NCBI GenBank assembly: GCA_017886545.1
Contig: JAGHJS010000036.1
Location: forward strand, 1 to 34,853
From: Clostridia bacterium
Lineage (GTDB): Bacteria; Bacillota; Clostridia; Christensenellales; Borkfalkiaceae
Direction of reading: 5' to 3'
DNA length: 34,853 nt
In this document: in pieces, positions 3,826 through 34,853 of the stretch
Layout: every line of letters begins with the position of its first letter
Numbering within the stretch: the stretch's first letter is position 1
The notes under the pieces: model-generated
What the model was told of the DNA's origin: nothing
What the model saw: the letters and a program-made list of their open reading frames with translations, nothing else
The model's database searches: none
Translations under genes and position numbers: made by a program

Positions 3826-4995
3826 ATGGATGTTTATCAGCGTTCGCTCGCGCTGCACAAGGAGCTGCGCGGCAAATACGAGATCCGTTCGCTCGTCGAA
3901 GTAAAGGATAGGGAGTCACTTTCGCTCGCGTACACGCCCGGCGTGGCGCAGCCCTGCAAGGAGATCGCCGCCGACCCGTCCGCGGCGTACCTCTACACCC
4001 GCAAGTGGAACACCGTCGCCGTCGTGTCCGACGGCAGCGCCGTTCTGGGCTTAGGCAACATCGGCGGGCTGGCGGGTCTGCCCGTCATGGAGGGGAAGGC
4101 CGTTCTCTTCCGTGAATTCGGCGGCATCGACGCCATCCCCATCGTGCTTTCGGGGCAGGATACGGACGACATCGTCAAAGCGGTGGAGATGATCGCGCCC
4201 TCCTTCGGCGGCATCAACCTGGAAGACATCCGCGCGCCCAAGTGCTTTGAAGTGGAGGCGCGCCTCAAAGAAAAGCTGGATATCCCCGTCTTTCACGACG
4301 ACCAGCACGGCACGGCGATCGTGACGGGCGCGGCGCTCATCAACGCGCTCAAGCTCGCGGGCAAGAGCCTTGCGGACATCCGCATCGTCATCTGCGGCGC
4401 GGGCAGCGCGGGCATCGCCATCTGCAAACTTTTACAGGCGAGCGGCGCGAAGCACATCACCCTCACCGCGAGCCGCGGCATCGTCTGCGAAGGGGAGCCG
4501 TGGCTGTCCGTCGCGCAGGCGGACATTGCCAAGAGCACCAACCGCGAGCACCTGCGCGGCAAACTTGCCGACGCGGTGAAGGGGGCGGACGTGTTCATCG
4601 GCGTGTCAGCGCCCGGGCAGCTCACCAAGGAGATGGTGCAAAGCATGGCGGAAAAGCCCATCGTGTTTGCGATGGCGAACCCCGAGCCCGAAATTTACCC
4701 GCAGGACGCCCTCGACGCGGGCGCGTTCGTCGTGGGAACGGGCCGCAGCGACTTCCCCAACCAGATCAACAACGTGCTCGCCTTCCCCGGCGTGTTCCGC
4801 GGCGCGCTCGACGTACGCGCGAGCGACATCACCGAGGGCATGAAGGTCGCCGCCGCGCACGCCCTGGCGGAGCTTGTGGGCGACGAACTGCGCCCCGATT
4901 ACGTCATCCCCTCCGCGTTCGATACACGCGTCGGCCCTGCGGTCGCCAAAGCCGTCGCCGAAGCGGCGAAGCGGGACGGGGTGGCAAGAGTGTGA
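3826..4995 (+). CDS. Malic enzyme (NAD(P)-dependent, short form)
   Basis: The 389-residue protein catalyses oxidative decarboxylation of malate to pyruvate and CO2. Diagnostic motifs in order are LAYTPGVAQPC near residue 45 (catalytic Tyr region), VVSDGSAVLGLGNIGG near 66, the substrate-lysine segment MEGKAVLF, the metal-binding block VFHDDQHGTAIV near 160, the Rossmann nucleotide loop GAGSAGIAI, and VFAMANPEPEIYP. Its length fits the short bacterial form without the phosphotransacetylase-like domain. AGGAGG precedes the ATG. The gene follows the PucR-type regulator by 35 nt and may be co-transcribed with it. Cofactor preference cannot be read with confidence. A repeat element begins 3 nt after the stop codon. 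Confidence 0.95.
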   Translation: MDVYQRSLALHKELRGKYEIRSLVEVKDRESLSLAYTPGVAQPCKEIAADPSAAYLYTRKWNTVAVVSDGSAVLGLGNIGGLAGLPVMEGKAVLFREFGGIDAIPIVLSGQDTDDIVKAVEMIAPSFGGINLEDIRAPKCFEVEARLKEKLDIPVFHDDQHGTAIVTGAALINALKLAGKSLADIRIVICGAGSAGIAICKLLQASGAKHITLTASRGIVCEGEPWLSVAQADIAKSTNREHLRGKLADAVKGADVFIGVSAPGQLTKEMVQSMAEKPIVFAMANPEPEIYPQDALDAGAFVVGTGRSDFPNQINNVLAFPGVFRGALDVRASDITEGMKVAAAHALAELVGDELRPDYVIPSAFDTRVGPAVAKAVAEAAKRDGVARV

Positions 4996-4998
4996 CCC

Positions 4999-5220
4999 TT
5001 TCGCGCAAACCTCGCAAAAGAGATGCTGCGGTTTGCGCGATTTTTAGGGGGAAACCGCTGCCCTTGCGGGACAGCCGTTTTCCCCTCTGCGCATGACCTT
5101 TGAAGGCTTCTCCTATTAAAAAGTCATGCGCATTCACCCCTTTCGCGTGAGTCGCAGGTATGCGACAAATTGAGTGCGCTTAGGCAAAAATGTGATTTTG
5201 CCACGCGCAGCGAATTATCA
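4999..5220 (+). repeat. Three-hairpin repeat element, copy A
   Basis: Starts directly after the malic enzyme stop. Hairpin 1 has perfect 10-bp arms 5002-5011 and 5030-5039, with an internal loop (TC opposite TGC) and an inner stem GCA/TGC. Hairpin 2 pairs 5046-5060 with 5072-5086 imperfectly. Hairpin 3 has perfect 10-bp arms 5088-5097 and 5123-5132, around a 25-nt loop ending CTATTAAAAA, followed at once by TTCACCCC. A small hairpin GTCGCA-GGTA-TGCGAC (5151-5166) and an AT-rich hairpin (GGCAAAA 5183-5189 with TTTTGCC 5196-5202, flanked by TGCGC/GCGCA) complete the unit, ending near GAATTATCA. The same architecture with different arm sequences recurs at 5230, 20316 and 34703, and on the minus strand near 23100-23350. 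Unrecognised family. Confidence 0.85.
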
Positions 5221-5229
5221 AAAAGGGCT

Positions 5230-5456
5230 TTCGTAAAAATCTCGGCGAGCTGACGCCTGCGATTTTTACGATGGGAGGATAACCCCACCACTCTCACTAT
5301 GTTCGAGATGGCGGAGGTTTTCCTCTGCGCCGCACCTTTCAGGGCGCACCATTATAGAAGTGCGGCGCATTCACCTTTCCTGCAAGAGCGCTTACGCGCA
5401 AACAGGGGTGCGCTAACGCAAAAGCGCGGTTTTGCTTGCGCGAGAGATTATTTAAG
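5230..5456 (+). repeat. Three-hairpin repeat element, copy B (tandem with A)
   Basis: Hairpin 1 arms 5232-5241 and 5261-5270 are a perfect 10-bp pair. They enclose the same TC/TGC internal loop as copy A and an inner GGCG/CGCC stem with loop AGCTGA. Hairpin 2 spans 5274-5325 with a loop flanked by CTCTC and GAGA. Hairpin 3 arms 5326-5335 and 5360-5369 are perfect, with a 24-nt loop ending ATTATAGAA, then TTCACC. The trailing AT-rich hairpin (GCAAAA 5418-5423 with TTTTGC 5430-5435, flanked by TGCGC and GCGC) runs to GATTATTTA near 5456. Arm sequences differ from copy A while pairing and loop motifs are kept. Confidence 0.85.
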
Positions 5457-5492
5457 CACGCCGCAATAGGCGGCGTAGGGACGCATGCCTCC

Positions 5493-5586
5493 TGTCATCC
5501 CGAGCCTGTCGAGGGATCTCTATGAAAATATCGACAATATCTGCATAGAGATTCTTCGACTTCACTTCGTTCCGTTCAGAATGACG
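5493..5586. repeat. TGTCATCC...ATGACG dispersed palindromic repeat
   Basis: A 94-nt palindromic element begins TGTCATCCCGAGCCTGTCG, contains GGATCTCTATG and its complement CATAGAGATTC, and ends TTCAGAATGACG. A closely related copy lies at 22691-22784 in the opposite arm order. Fragments with CTCAGAATGACG follow at 5610-5622. Repeats containing the core TCATCCTGAGCGAAG are widespread in intergenic regions of many bacteria. No ORF accompanies it. Confidence 0.8.
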
Positions 5587-5670: not shown

Positions 5671-5774
5671 ACCGCCGTTCTGCGCAGGGTGACACAAAAG
5701 GGATGACCTTGCCGCCGTTCCGCGCAAGGTGACACAAAAGGGATGACCTTGCCGCCGTTCCGCGCAGGGTGAGG
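5671..5774. repeat. 40-bp direct tandem repeat, about 2.6 copies
   Basis: The unit runs CCGCCGTTC, CGCGCAAGGT, GACACAAAAG, GGATGACCTT. Copies start at 5671 and 5711, with a partial copy from 5751. Units differ at only a few positions. It lies in the gene-free stretch before the cytidine-deaminase promoter. There are no spacers, so it is not a CRISPR array. Confidence 0.85.
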
Positions 5775-5800
5775 CAAAGCGTTTTCGTGTTATAAACAAT

Positions 5801-20315: not shown

Positions 20316-20534
20316 TTCACGCAAATCTCGCGCAAAGGCGCTGCGATTTGCCGTGAGTTAAGGGGCAACCGCCACTCTTGCGAGGTGGCGTTTTCCCCTC
20401 CGCGCGCGATATTTTGGGGCTTCGTATTATAGAAATCGCGCGCGTTCACCCCTTTTCATAAAGCCGCAGGTATGCGGCAAATTGGGTGCGCTTATTCAAA
20501 ATGCGATTTTGAAACGCGCAGGTGGATTATTAAA
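20316..20534 (+). repeat. Three-hairpin repeat element, copy C (grpE-dnaK gap)
   Basis: Hairpin 1 pairs TTCACGCAAATC (20316-20327) with GATTTGCCGTGAG (20345-20357), leaving one bulged base. The TC/TGC internal loop and an inner GCGC/GCGC stem match copies A and B. Hairpin 2 spans 20361-20399 (AGGGGCAACCGCCAC with GTGGCGTTTTCCCCT). Hairpin 3 has perfect arms 20401-20410 and 20435-20444, a 24-nt loop ending ATTATAGAA, then TTCACCCC. Next come GCCGCA-GGTA-TGCGGC (20463-20478) and an AT hairpin (TTCAAAA 20495-20501 with TTTTGAA 20507-20513, flanked by TGCGC and GCGCA), ending GGATTATTAAA. A further AT stem (20539-20571, GCAAAAG with CTTTTGC) follows. No promoter of good quality precedes dnaK, so grpE transcripts may read through it. 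Confidence 0.85.
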
Positions 20535-22616: not shown

Positions 22617-22784
22617 TCATCCTGAGCGAAGCTGTCGCTCAGACAAGGGTTTCCCCTTGTCATCCTGAGCGGAGCGAAGCGGCTATTCCCTGTCATCCTG
22701 AGCGGAGCGAAGCGGAGTCGAAGGATCTCTATGATAATAATGACGATATTCACATAGAGATCCCTCGACAGGCTCGGGATGACA
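22617..22784. repeat. TCATCCTGAGC dispersed repeat cluster
   Basis: A full palindromic copy at 22691-22784 runs TGTCATCCTGAGC... GGATCTCTATG (22723-22733), CATAGAGATCC (22753-22763), ...GCTCGGGATGACA. Two partial copies precede it, at 22618-22632 (CATCCTGAGCGAAGC) and 22658-22681 (TTGTCATCCTGAGCGGAGC). It is the same family as 5493-5586. Confidence 0.85.
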
Positions 22785-22812
22785 GAGAGTGCCTGCCTGA
22801 GCGTACTTTCAA

Positions 22813-23052
22813 GAATCAAATTGCGCGTTTCAAAATCGCTGATTCGGATAAGAGTTTTTAAATAATATTTTGCGCGTGCCAAAATCGCATTTTTGCCAAA
22901 ATACTTTTTAATAATTTTATTGCGCGTGGCAAAATGACACTTTTGCCTAAGCGCCCCCAAATTGTCGCAAACCTGCGGCTTAATTTGGAAAGAGTGAATG
23001 CGGCGCAAATAATTTCTTGCAAAAGGCAAAACCGCGCTTTTGCCTTTTGCAC
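22813..23052 (-). repeat. Array of AT-rich hairpin modules of the three-hairpin family (minus orientation)
   Basis: Read on the minus strand, this stretch repeats the 3' module seen after copies A-C. It holds a perfect 13-bp stem GCAAAAGGCAAAA/TTTTGCCTTTTGC (23019-23031, 23038-23050), an ATTCACTC remnant (22992-22999), GCCGCA-GGTT-TGCGAC (about 22963-22978), GGCAAAA/TTTTGCC flanked by GCGC (about 22922-22953), then two more GCGATTTTG...CGCGCAA units (22876-22905 and 22820-22842). Spacer sequences such as AATTATTTAAAA recur. It fills much of the dnaK-dnaJ gap. Confidence 0.75.
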
Positions 23053-23082
23053 CTTGCGCTTTGTGGAAAGCGTAACGGAAGA

Positions 23083-23175
23083 GGGTGAATTTTCGCCCGT
23101 TCTATAATAGGAAAGCCCTGTTTAACAGGGCTCCCGAAAATCGCAGCGTGCGGAAGCACTGCGAGATTTTTGGGA
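23083..23175 (-). repeat. Three-hairpin repeat element, shortened copy E
   Basis: On the minus strand hairpin 1 (23175-23136) keeps the TC/TGC internal loop, with an inner GTGC-TTCC-GCAC stem. Hairpin 2 is absent. Hairpin 3 (CGAAAAT 23135-23141 with ATTTTCG 23089-23095) keeps TATTATAGAA near its loop end and TTCACCC after it. It holds an extra nested hairpin AGCCCTG/CAGGGCT (23114-23132). Hairpins 1 and 3 share the arm at 23136-23141, so both cannot form at once. Confidence 0.7.
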
Positions 23176-23179
23176 AAGA

Positions 23180-23353
23180 GGCAAAACAATGCCGCAGCGC
23201 ATGCGGGTTGGCGTTTGCCGACCCGCAGCAAGGCGGGCGTTGTTTTGCCGAGCCGCAGAGAGAAAAACGGTGGTTAGCCGCAACGCGGCGTGCCCGCCGG
23301 TTGTCTCTCCAATCACGGAAATTTCTTTCATCTCTTTTGAAAGAAATTTCGTG
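23180..23353 (-). repeat. Three-hairpin repeat element, copy F
   Basis: On the minus strand hairpin 1 pairs 23353-23338 with 23330-23314 (CACGAAATTTCTTTCA arm, one bulged base as in C and D). Hairpin 2 pairs 23310-23297 with 23270-23257 imperfectly. Hairpin 3 has perfect 10-bp arms GGCAAAACAA/TTGTTTTGCC (23180-23189, 23240-23249) and a 50-nt loop holding a nested stem TGCGGGT/ACCCGCA. The TTCACCC flank has decayed to TCTTTCCC. It ends 16 nt before the dnaJ start codon. Confidence 0.75.
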
Positions 23354-23368
23354 AATAAGGAGTTTTTC

Positions 23369-32411: not shown

Positions 32412-32459
32412 AAGCAGGGTATTTCAACTTCCGATATTTTGAATGGGTTTCAAATAAAA

Positions 32460-32530
32460 ACACAATATATTGTATTTTCCCGTCGAACTGTTGCAAAAGC
32501 GACAGTTTTTTTTATCGGGCGTGGTATAAT
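32460..32530 (+). promoter_or_regulatory. nrdD promoter region with a candidate NrdR box
   Basis: TATAAT at 32525-32530 with TG one base upstream (32522-32523) is an extended -10. No clear -35 is present. The palindrome ACAATATATTGT (32462-32473, within ACACAATATATTGTA) matches the NrdR-box type that represses ribonucleotide reductase genes. NrdR usually binds two boxes about three helical turns apart, and I see no good second box. Confidence 0.5.
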
Positions 32531-32573
32531 AAATAGCATAGCGCAAAACGCGGAAGAAGGGAGGATACGAACC

Positions 32574-34697
32574 GTGCAGGTCATCAAGAGAGACGGGGCG
32601 GTTGCCGAATACGAAAGGGCGAAGATCGCGATCGCGATCGGCAAAGCGAATGCCGAAGTGGAAGCGCAGGAGCGTGCGTCGGGCAAGGAGATCGAGGCGA
32701 TCCTCGAACACATCGAAGCCAAAAAGAAAAAGCGCATGCTCGTCGAGGACATTCAGGACATCATCGAAGAGAAGCTGATGGAGCAGGGGCACTATACCCT
32801 CGCCAAAACGTACATCATCTATCGGTATAACCGCGCGCTCGTGCGCAAGGCGAACACGACGGACGAGGCGATCCTGAGCCTCATCTCCAACGCGAACAAA
32901 GACGTGATGGAGGAGAACTCCAACAAGAACGCGCTCGCCGCGGCGACCCAGCGCGACCTCATCGCGGGCGAAGTGTCGAAGGACCTCACCAAGCGCATCC
33001 TGCTGCCCGAAAAGATCAGCAAGGCGCACGAAGAGGGCGTGCTGCACTTCCACGACGCGGATTACTTCATCCAGCCCATCTTCAACTGCTGCCTCATCAA
33101 CATCGGCGACATGCTCGACAACGGCACCGTCATGAACGGCAAGCTCATCGAAAGCCCGAAGAGTTTCCAGGTCGCCTGCACCGTCGTCACGCAGATCATC
33201 GCGGCGGTCGCCTGCTCGCAGTACGGCGGGCAGTCGGTGGATATCCGCCACCTCGGCAAATACCTGCGCAAGAGCCGCGTGAAGTTTGAAAAGCACTTCC
33301 GCGAGACCTGCCCCGAACTTTCGGACGAGGAAGTGAAAAAGCTGGTCGACGACCGCATCCGGGACGAGCTGAAGAGCGGCGTGCAGACCATTCAGTACCA
33401 GATCAACACGCTGATGACGACCAACGGGCAGAGCCCGTTCGTCACCCTCTTTCTGTACCTCGACAAGGACGACGAGTACCTCGAGGAGAACGCGCAGATC
33501 ATCATGGAGATCCTGCGCCAGCGCTACGAGGGCATCAAGAACGAAAAGGGCGTGTACGTCACCCCCGCGTTCCCCAAGCTCGTGTACGTGCTGGACGAGA
33601 TCAACTGCCTCAAAGGCGGCAGGTACGATTATATCACGAAGTTCGCCGTCAAGTGCTCGGCAAAGCGGCTGTACCCCGATTACATCTCCGCAAAGAAGAT
33701 GCGCGAAGTGTACGAGGGCAACGTGTTCAGCCCCATGGGCTGCCGCTCCTTCCTCTCGCCGTGGAAGGACGAGAACGGGAACTACAAATTCGAAGGCAGG
33801 TTCAACCAGGGTGTCGTGTCCATCAACCTGCCGCAGATCGGGCTGATCGCCAAGGGCGACGAAAAGAAGTTCTGGGAGCTGTTCGACGAGCGGCTGGAGC
33901 TGTGCCGCGAGGCGCTCATGTGCCGCCACCGCGCGCTTCTGGGCACCAAGTCGGACGTGTCGCCCATCCACTGGCAGTACGGCGCGATCGCGCGGCTGGA
34001 TAAGGGCGAGGTGATCGACAAACTGCTGTTCAACGGCTATTCCACCCTGTCGCTCGGGTACATCGGGCTGTACGAGGTGACCAAGCTGATGACGGGCGTG
34101 CCGCAGACCGACCCGAAGGGCGAAGAGTTTGCGACGCGCGTCATGCAGCACATGCGCGACGCGACGGATCGCTGGAAGAAGGAGACGGGGCTCGGGTTCG
34201 CGCTGTACGGCACGCCGGCGGAGTCGCTGTGCTACCGCTTCGCGCGCATCGACAAGGAGAAGTTCGGCACCGTCGAAGACGTGACGGACAAGGGCTATTA
34301 CACCAACTCGTACCATGTGGACGTGCGCGAGCACATCGACGCGTTCTCCAAATTCTCCTTCGAGGCGCAGTTCCAGAAGATCTCTTCGGGCGGGTGCATC
34401 TCCTACGTCGAGATCCCGAACATGCAGAACAACCTCGAGGCGATGGAGGAGGTCGTCAAGTTCATCTACGGCAACATCCAGTACGCGGAATTCAACACCA
34501 AGAGCGACTACTGCCATGTGTGCGGCTGGGACGGGGAGATCATCATCAACGACGACAACGAGTGGGAATGCCCCAACTGCCACAACAAAGACCACAAAAA
34601 GATGAACGTGACCCGCCGTACCTGCGGGTACCTGGGCGAAAACTTCTGGAACCTGGGCAAGACCAAAGAGATCAAGGCGCGGGTGCTGCATTTGTAA
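32574..34697 (+). CDS. nrdD: Anaerobic (class III) ribonucleoside-triphosphate reductase
   Basis: The 707-residue enzyme reduces NTPs to dNTPs with a glycyl radical and is oxygen-sensitive. The N-terminal ATP-cone (about 1-95) starts MQVIKRDGAVAEYERAKIAI. The catalytic barrel includes GVLHFHDADYFIQPIFNCCL, SQYGGQSVDIRHLGKYL and FSPMGCRSFLSPW. The C terminus has a four-Cys zinc site (YCHVCGWDGE, ECPNCHN) and the glycyl-radical loop RRTCGYLGENFW. The start is a GTG at 32574 after GGGAGG; upstream in-frame sequence runs through the promoter. The activase gene nrdG is expected downstream, beyond the window. A repeat element begins 6 nt after the stop. Confidence 0.97.
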   Translation: MQVIKRDGAVAEYERAKIAIAIGKANAEVEAQERASGKEIEAILEHIEAKKKKRMLVEDIQDIIEEKLMEQGHYTLAKTYIIYRYNRALVRKANTTDEAILSLISNANKDVMEENSNKNALAAATQRDLIAGEVSKDLTKRILLPEKISKAHEEGVLHFHDADYFIQPIFNCCLINIGDMLDNGTVMNGKLIESPKSFQVACTVVTQIIAAVACSQYGGQSVDIRHLGKYLRKSRVKFEKHFRETCPELSDEEVKKLVDDRIRDELKSGVQTIQYQINTLMTTNGQSPFVTLFLYLDKDDEYLEENAQIIMEILRQRYEGIKNEKGVYVTPAFPKLVYVLDEINCLKGGRYDYITKFAVKCSAKRLYPDYISAKKMREVYEGNVFSPMGCRSFLSPWKDENGNYKFEGRFNQGVVSINLPQIGLIAKGDEKKFWELFDERLELCREALMCRHRALLGTKSDVSPIHWQYGAIARLDKGEVIDKLLFNGYSTLSLGYIGLYEVTKLMTGVPQTDPKGEEFATRVMQHMRDATDRWKKETGLGFALYGTPAESLCYRFARIDKEKFGTVEDVTDKGYYTNSYHVDVREHIDAFSKFSFEAQFQKISSGGCISYVEIPNMQNNLEAMEEVVKFIYGNIQYAEFNTKSDYCHVCGWDGEIIINDDNEWECPNCHNKDHKKMNVTRRTCGYLGENFWNLGKTKEIKARVLHL

Positions 34698-34702
34698 AAC
34701 TG

Positions 34703-34853
34703 TTCACGAAATTTTTTCCGAGCTGACGGAAAAAATTTCCGTGAGTTGAGGGCGACACCGCCGCTCTCCTAAATTCGAGACGGCGGTTTCTCCCTCGCCG
34801 CGGCATCTTTTAGGGCACACCATTATAGAAATGCCGCGGCTTCACCCTCTTCC
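34703..34853 (+). repeat. Three-hairpin repeat element, copy D (cut by window end)
   Basis: Hairpin 1 pairs TTCACGAAATTTTTTCCG (34703-34720) with CGGAAAAAATTTCCGTGAG (34727-34745), with one bulged C and loop AGCTGA as in copy B. Hairpin 2 spans 34748-34796 (GAGGGCGACACCGCC with GGCGGTTTCTCCCTC), with a loop flanked by CTCTC and GAGA. Hairpin 3 has perfect arms 34797-34806 and 34831-34840, a 24-nt loop ending CATTATAGAA, then TTCACCCTC. The expected AT-rich 3' module lies past the window edge. Confidence 0.85.

Follow-up and report, generated by a model that had tools for sequence, protein, structure and literature searches.

A modular five-hairpin DNA repeat with a candidate intrastrand triplex, found behind the malic enzyme gene of a Clostridia bacterium and in its relatives

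What are the two structured units that follow the malic enzyme gene at positions 4999-5456 of the window, by which we mean the whole stretch of 34,853 nucleotides analysed here from contig JAGHJS010000036.1 of a Clostridia bacterium, and is their structure kept as RNA or as DNA? A preliminary description had seen in them an undescribed family of three-hairpin elements under selection for structure, and had proposed a genome-wide search with a covariance model, a covariation test, a search of Rfam and a comparison of intergenic regions between strains. We found that units A and B are copies of a widespread, non-coding, modular and interspersed DNA repeat with five hairpins (Table 1). They lie head-to-tail and directly follow a gene (3826-4995) for malic enzyme with Pfam malic domains; the best named relatives of this enzyme share 54-64% identity and belong mostly to Clostridia and other Bacillota.

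The alignment of 14 copies yielded a unit plan of about 220 nt, consisting of the hairpins H1, H2 and H3, a linker starting with TTCAC, the hairpins H4 and H5, and finally ATTATT as a tail. Hence the three hairpins described earlier are real, while H4, H5, the tail and the third-strand-like linker had been missed. All four arm pairs quoted for H3 are present and exactly complementary. The H3 loop end ATTATAGAA had been taken as fixed, but copy A carries ATTAAAAAG there instead; of the supposedly fixed TTCACC(C) behind H3, TTCAC is conserved, but the next letters vary and form four main classes. The 14 copies behind the covariance model R1 include A, B and C beside 11 others; A-C therefore match it by construction, whereas D, E and the copy at 22908 are independent of the model. 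R1 matches all copies that had been said to share the plan, at 20316, at 34703 and on the minus strand, where the copy reported near 23100-23350 is present but interrupted by a nested insert. Unit E follows an anaerobic ribonucleotide reductase gene (32439-34697) and begins 5 nt past its stop codon.

Table 1. Repeat units and their parts in the window.
Feature	Position	Strand	Basis or remark
Unit A, complete five-hairpin copy	5000..5221	+	begins 4 nt past malic enzyme stop codon TGA
Unit A H1, TC/TGC internal loop	5001..5040	+	
Unit A H2, purine 5' arm AGGGGG.., pyrimidine 3' arm ..TTTTCCCCT	5046..5086	+	
Unit A H3, arms of 10 bp, TGCGCATGAC/GTCATGCGCA	5088..5132	+	
Unit A linker TTCACCCCTTTC, mirrors H2 3' arm; candidate triplex third strand	5133..5144	+	
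Unit A H4, GTCGCA-GGTA-TGCGAC	5151..5166	+	
Unit A H5, TGCGC..GCAAAA..TTTTGC..GCGCA	5175..5209	+	
Unit B, head-to-tail behind A	5230..5455	+	covariance model
Unit C, grpE-dnaK spacer	20316..20533	+	covariance model
Partial unit, chiefly tail hairpins, joined behind unit D in dnaK-dnaJ spacer	22908..23055	-	covariance model
Unit D remainder: H3 loop end ATTATAGAA, TTCACC linker, tail; overlaps insert end	23005..23176	-	weak match, 37.7 bits, seen in the genome-wide covariance model scan only
Insert of 119 nt nested in unit D, ending in H1-like hairpin TTCCCAAAAATCTC..GATTTTCGGGA	23132..23250	-	
Unit D, H1-H2 portion, antisense; H1 faces dnaJ (start codon 23369)	23183..23355	-	covariance model
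Unit E, H1-H3 and linker, cut by contig end	34703..34853	+	covariance model

Other repeats accompany these units. Behind the partial unit, several H5-type tail hairpins stand in series at 22800-22960 on the minus strand, as if the tail module alone had multiplied. A second repeat family has 94-nt copies, TGTCATCCCGAGC...GGATGACA, at 5492-5585 and 22692-22785, which are mutually 86% complementary, and more copies of it lie beside several five-hairpin units. Between unit B and the next gene, a 40-nt repeat is present in three tandem copies (5672-5791).

In the host genome of 2.06 Mb, R1 gave at least 113 matches at E<=0.01, the best 150 of 908 first-look candidates having been scored. With stricter filters and the best 37 candidates scored per genome, at least 35 of the 37 genomes of the genus, host included, contain matches; genomes G002 and G005 gave none among their best 37 candidates each. 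The model also matches in G041, a genome of another family. Across the order, with the best five candidates scored per genome, at least 27 of 396 genomes match at E<=1e-4: the host and one other of its genus, 19 from other genera of the family and six from other families. Eighteen distant copies follow the same plan, mostly with a TTCAC linker, and their H1-H3 arms are unlike those of the host genome. The architecture of the repeat is kept across families of the order, with nearly free sequence in the arms. To our knowledge, few repeat families keep a structure across families in this way.

Rfam gave no match in the window. For units A and B there were just four sub-threshold matches, to eukaryotic microRNA and snoRNA families (E 0.34-6.4), and for 18 loci from other genera and families only an unrelated SRP RNA was reported. 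These searches speak against a known Rfam RNA, and we found no description of the repeat in the literature searched, which excludes most subscription journals; close analogues in kind do exist. A blastn comparison of unit A with phage and plasmid sequences returned no match, which weakens spread on the phages and plasmids searched. In viral contigs two exact pattern matches were seen, about the number expected by chance according to a rough estimate.

The preliminary claim of selection on structure is supported by two kinds of covariation data, if active maintenance of the arms is allowed beside selection. In the 14-copy alignment (A1), RNAalifold predicted 48 pairs, and 30 of these showed one double change or more. 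In this alignment, from which the tested structure was itself derived, 94.7% of the cells pair, compared with 80.3% in shuffled and 38-52% in slid controls, and both sides change in 30 of 48 pairs versus 17.2 after shuffling; further pair types, one of five measures, were no more frequent than in the shuffles (45 vs 46.3). The other line is a tree-aware, R-scape-like test on 139 units of 180-260 nt, aligned without structure and with interrupted and partial copies left out. Here a G-test score was compared with 20 null alignments, in which an equal number of changes was placed on the tree with columns independent. At E<=0.05, 41 column pairs were significant, 27 of them Watson-Crick in at least 60% of rows. 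All but one of these 27 (26) are stem or loop-closing pairs, distributed over all five hairpins (one pair in H4), and the remaining one, 27-31, falls inside one H1 arm. The other 14 are mostly offset by one or a few columns within the same hairpins. One further covarying pair, columns 55 and 150, connects H2 with the linker (E 0.05).

Between the two levels left open earlier, RNA or folded single-stranded DNA, the kind of mismatch leans to DNA. Over 343 distinct stems, counted with gaps allowed and with a scoring that treats mismatches of every kind alike, the internal pairs comprise 3,276 Watson-Crick pairs, 15 G.U, 18 A.C and 133 other mismatches, 90 of the latter being C.T of H2. G.U is rare, and in distinct stems it is no commoner than A.C. 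As a control, 11 tRNAs of the same loci, counted at fixed positions and by a method not identical to that for the repeat, contain 10 G.U, 3 A.C and 117 Watson-Crick pairs. An ungapped count had given an excess of A.C (G.U to A.C 16 to 55 in the host genome, 8 to 27 in its closest relative G061), largely due to fixed H2 mismatches, H3 ends and nested inserts; it is superseded by the distinct-stem count. Since RNA stems drifting through G.U should differ from what is seen, the near absence of G.U from distinct stems leans towards maintenance at the DNA level, without being decisive. On the other side, the fixed columns of H1 and H3 hold 64 G.U versus 30 A.C in about 3,100 cells (18 G.U from one column pair), and distinct H2 stems alone show 12 G.U versus 4 A.C, which could be a hint of RNA.

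The linker varies together with H2. The letters past TTCA fall into four main classes that track the H2 3' arm in 116 of 138 classified rows, the pairings being TCTCTC with CTCTTT, TCCCTC with CCCTCTT, CCCCTC with CCCCTTT and TTCCTC with CCTTTCC. Compared with the H2 3' arm in a mirror model, the linker scores a mean of 5.90/7 versus 4.45 for shuffled data (maximum of 500 shuffles 4.74), in 130 of 193 rows and in a register set after the linker classes were known. The mirror order expected of a triplex motif is complete (7/7) in 51 of these 130 units and reaches at least 6/7 in 85. A direct-repeat model of the linker scores 3.92. Watson-Crick pairing of the linker with the H2 5' arm, taken as the best of five registers, reaches 4.09/7 versus 3.72 shuffled, and was rejected because it fits worse than the mirror.

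H2 and linker classes are concordant in 98 of 112 units (112 of 139 used). On a tree made without H2 and linker, both classes change on 14 branches, 13 times to the same class, versus 4.6 expected (maximum 11 in 5000 randomizations). The linker covaries with the H2 3' arm in the way that an intrastrand triplex would require. The H2 purine arm retains a mismatch in many copies. In genera g26 and g28, 8 of 12 rows match the mirror no better than shuffled data (<=4/7); two f6 genomes (L230, L232), with one row each, show a mirror of 6/7. A third strand in mirror order beside a purine/pyrimidine hairpin has been described as an intrastrand triplex motif (PMC4666352), and on the complementary strand the order would, in our own reading, be that of its class I purine motif. 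Judged from these patterns in the sequence, H2 and the linker probably form the predicted intrastrand triplex, the linker serving as third strand to the H2 duplex.

Moreover, the repeat has a polarity. With open frames of at least 90 codons taken as genes in place of gene calls, and duplicates and units less than 400 nt from a locus end omitted, 77 of 163 units have an upstream stop codon no more than 15 nt from the start of H1 (38/80 in the host genome, 18/30 in G061, 21/53 in other genomes of the genus), as compared with 177 of 4000 random positions (4.4%). The H5 end lies that close to a stop codon in 14 of 160 units. In 40 of 84 after-stop units H1 stands 3-5 nt behind the stop codon; many units not placed after a stop are second array members or carry inserts. 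Among the 18 distant copies, six begin 1-9 nt past a stop codon and three lie 8-14 nt from a start codon. In antisense orientation, a start codon lies within 60 nt of H1 in 32 of 163 units, 21 of these at 10-19 nt, and within 40 nt in 29 of 163, hardly above the random 551 of 4000. Neighbouring units (96 of 113 matches used) are arranged head-to-tail in 20 cases and tail-to-tail in seven, and H1-to-H1 in 0 of 27. H1 faces the gene end, and the preferred site is the first nucleotides past the stop codon.

Hairpins of the H1 type are also seen alone. At L179:4621-4655 a lone perfect H1-like palindrome fills the gap between a stop codon at a distance of 9 nt and a start codon at 12 nt. A search of 503 kb of G061 for lone H1 palindromes returned one, on both strands, and missed at least two H1-type hairpins (L192, L193).

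Occupation of sites varies between species, as the proposed presence/absence comparison shows: a unit lies in the grpE-dnaK spacer in six of 27 loci and in the dnaK-dnaJ spacer in five of 27, and the host genome has both. In L094 a unit follows dnaK in a locus without dnaJ. In G061, the closest relative among the genomes compared, two units likewise adjoin the malic enzyme gene, with arms of other types; the 28 further malic enzyme loci (L142-L169) gave one R1 match, in L143, about 2 kb past the gene. We located 35 flanks of host units in G061, some of them inside arrays and so not clean tests, and 19 of the 35 have a unit in the corresponding position. Among the remaining 16, several show an H1-type hairpin without a model match. 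Nine unit pairs could be compared, with identities of 0.45, 0.54, 0.56, 0.60, 0.74, 0.75, 0.78, 0.85 and 0.90, next to flanks of 77-94% identity, and several shared sites carry a different arm type. Many sites are common to both genomes, some of them with contents that have diverged much further than the sequence around them. A clean filled-versus-empty pair of the five-hairpin unit was not found among the compared loci. Nested inserts recur at a few unit positions, which points to an exchange of modules; they are 108-127 nt long and end like H1 in 27 of the 31 rows in which both ends were seen.

A third repeat family provides a clean insertion of 131 nt at L125:1025-1155, absent in the relative L176 at 3128. 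It begins with GTTTCG, ends with GAAACGTG and contains GGGTCACGTACGTCTGTGTACGCT inside; similar copies lie between grpE and dnaK in L082 and L093.

Which enzyme could move such units? The Y1 HUH transposase (PF01797) was not found in the host genome, which is 85% complete, nor in 17 of 40 genus genomes, element-rich ones among them. It is present in G002 (five matches) and G005 (three), the two genomes without an R1 match. Transposition of the Y1/REP type by a gene of the host genome is weakened, as the domain was not found there and does not follow the units. The reverse transcriptase domain PF00078 occurs in four of 40 genus genomes, the host not among them, and does not follow the units either, which weakens a reverse-transcribed element such as a retron or group II intron. 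At the unit ends, a terminal inverted repeat (shared word of at least 7) was seen in only two of 137 units, a target-site duplication (shared word of at least 5) in 22 of 137 versus a shuffled mean of 16 and maximum of 24, and a GTAG/CGTC tag immediately preceding H1 or placed at the tail in 0 of 137. With neither a Y1 transposase nor a reverse transcriptase found in the host genome and none of these signatures established at the unit ends, a putative recogniser of folded DNA, another mover, or exchange at stalled replication is left; the ordered five-hairpin architecture across families suggests a recogniser.

Taken together, we slightly favour a DNA repeat that is mobile or undergoes exchange, comparable in its working to REP/BIME, BOX or bcr1 elements, and is kept by paired changes of its arms. 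The unit would be copied or moved as folded DNA, be it single-stranded or extruded as a palindrome, through a trans-acting protein or through exchange coupled to replication, and the candidate triplex of H2 and linker may help to fold the strand or may stall replication and so favour exchange between copies. A bolder version, which we propose only tentatively, would be an ancient, order-wide class of elements without a transposase of their own, in which a folded DNA object of five hairpins and an intrastrand triplex is recognised by shape, not by sequence, and a putative enzyme places units behind stop codons with fixed polarity. A classical MITE, the deletion derivative of a DDE transposon moved via terminal inverted repeats, would agree in size, copy number and its non-coding, intergenic nature, but the unit ends, with the inverted repeat so rare and target duplications not above shuffles, make it highly improbable.

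The position 3-5 nt past the stop codon in sense orientation, the covarying stems and the surplus of G.U over A.C in the H1 and H3 columns would all suit a structured RNA element in the 3' ends of mRNAs that was spread and retained by selection for a host function in mRNA stability or in the control of transcription or translation. For REP elements, effects on mRNA and translation are known. We nevertheless consider an RNA element unlikely, because G.U is as rare as A.C in distinct stems, antisense and tail-to-tail copies exist, and both the occupation of sites and the arm type at one site differ. Quite unlikely, in our view, is a process without any dedicated enzyme, in which palindromes and triplex motif stall replication and template switching copies arms and swaps modules, so that the units would be self-perpetuating replication errors. 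Such switching would account for arms that are Watson-Crick-pure, for the mosaic of arm types, for nested inserts that recur at certain positions, and for contents that differ at shared borders; moreover, loci with intrastrand triplexes are reportedly more rearranged among E. coli strains (PMC4666352). Alone, however, it explains neither the polarity towards gene ends nor new sites, the five-hairpin order kept across families speaks for a recogniser, and five of the nine comparable unit pairs are still alike at 0.74-0.90.

Among known systems, REP/BIME sequences with their transposase TnpA_REP (RAYT) are similar in being high-copy intergenic palindromes that often touch stop codons and form mosaic arrays, and they are recognised as folded single-stranded DNA (PMC8266576, PMC3733652). 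Unlike REP/BIME, the repeat is a five-hairpin unit of 220 nt with nearly free arm sequence, it lacks the GTAG/CGTC tag before H1, and no Y1 transposase was found in the host genome. BOX of Streptococcus pneumoniae, with 125 elements in one genome, is likewise modular, with extensive predicted structure and nested insertions, and is set apart, by description, through its terminal inverted repeats and target duplications (PMC3049150), none of which were found here. The bcr1-type repeats of the Bacillus cereus group are also dispersed and intergenic, some families being conserved in structure and forming parts of UTRs; bcr1-bcr3 are described as MITE-like (PMC3446304), whereas in our units, compared by this description, we found no MITE ends.

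In repeats with intrastrand triplex motifs (ITxF database, TM_ECO), a purine/pyrimidine hairpin and a third strand of matching order likewise lie on one strand in intergenic DNA, and such repeats have been linked to genome rearrangement (PMC4666352). TM_ECO, as described there, is 37 nt long and has no fixed distance to genes, and the motif search allows loops of 1-6 nt; the present unit has H1, H4 and H5 in addition, and the whole of H3 separates its duplex from the third strand. New are the placement at stop codons, the lack of H1-to-H1 neighbours, G.U as rare as A.C, the mirror linker covarying with H2 and the change of arm type at shared sites. This combination would make the spread of shape-recognised DNA repeats without an encoded transposase testable, and would provide a natural triplex system from a bacterial order represented here chiefly by draft genomes. 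Overall, the repeat appears to lack the defining features of REP and MITE for which we looked, and bears the sequence signature of an intrastrand triplex.
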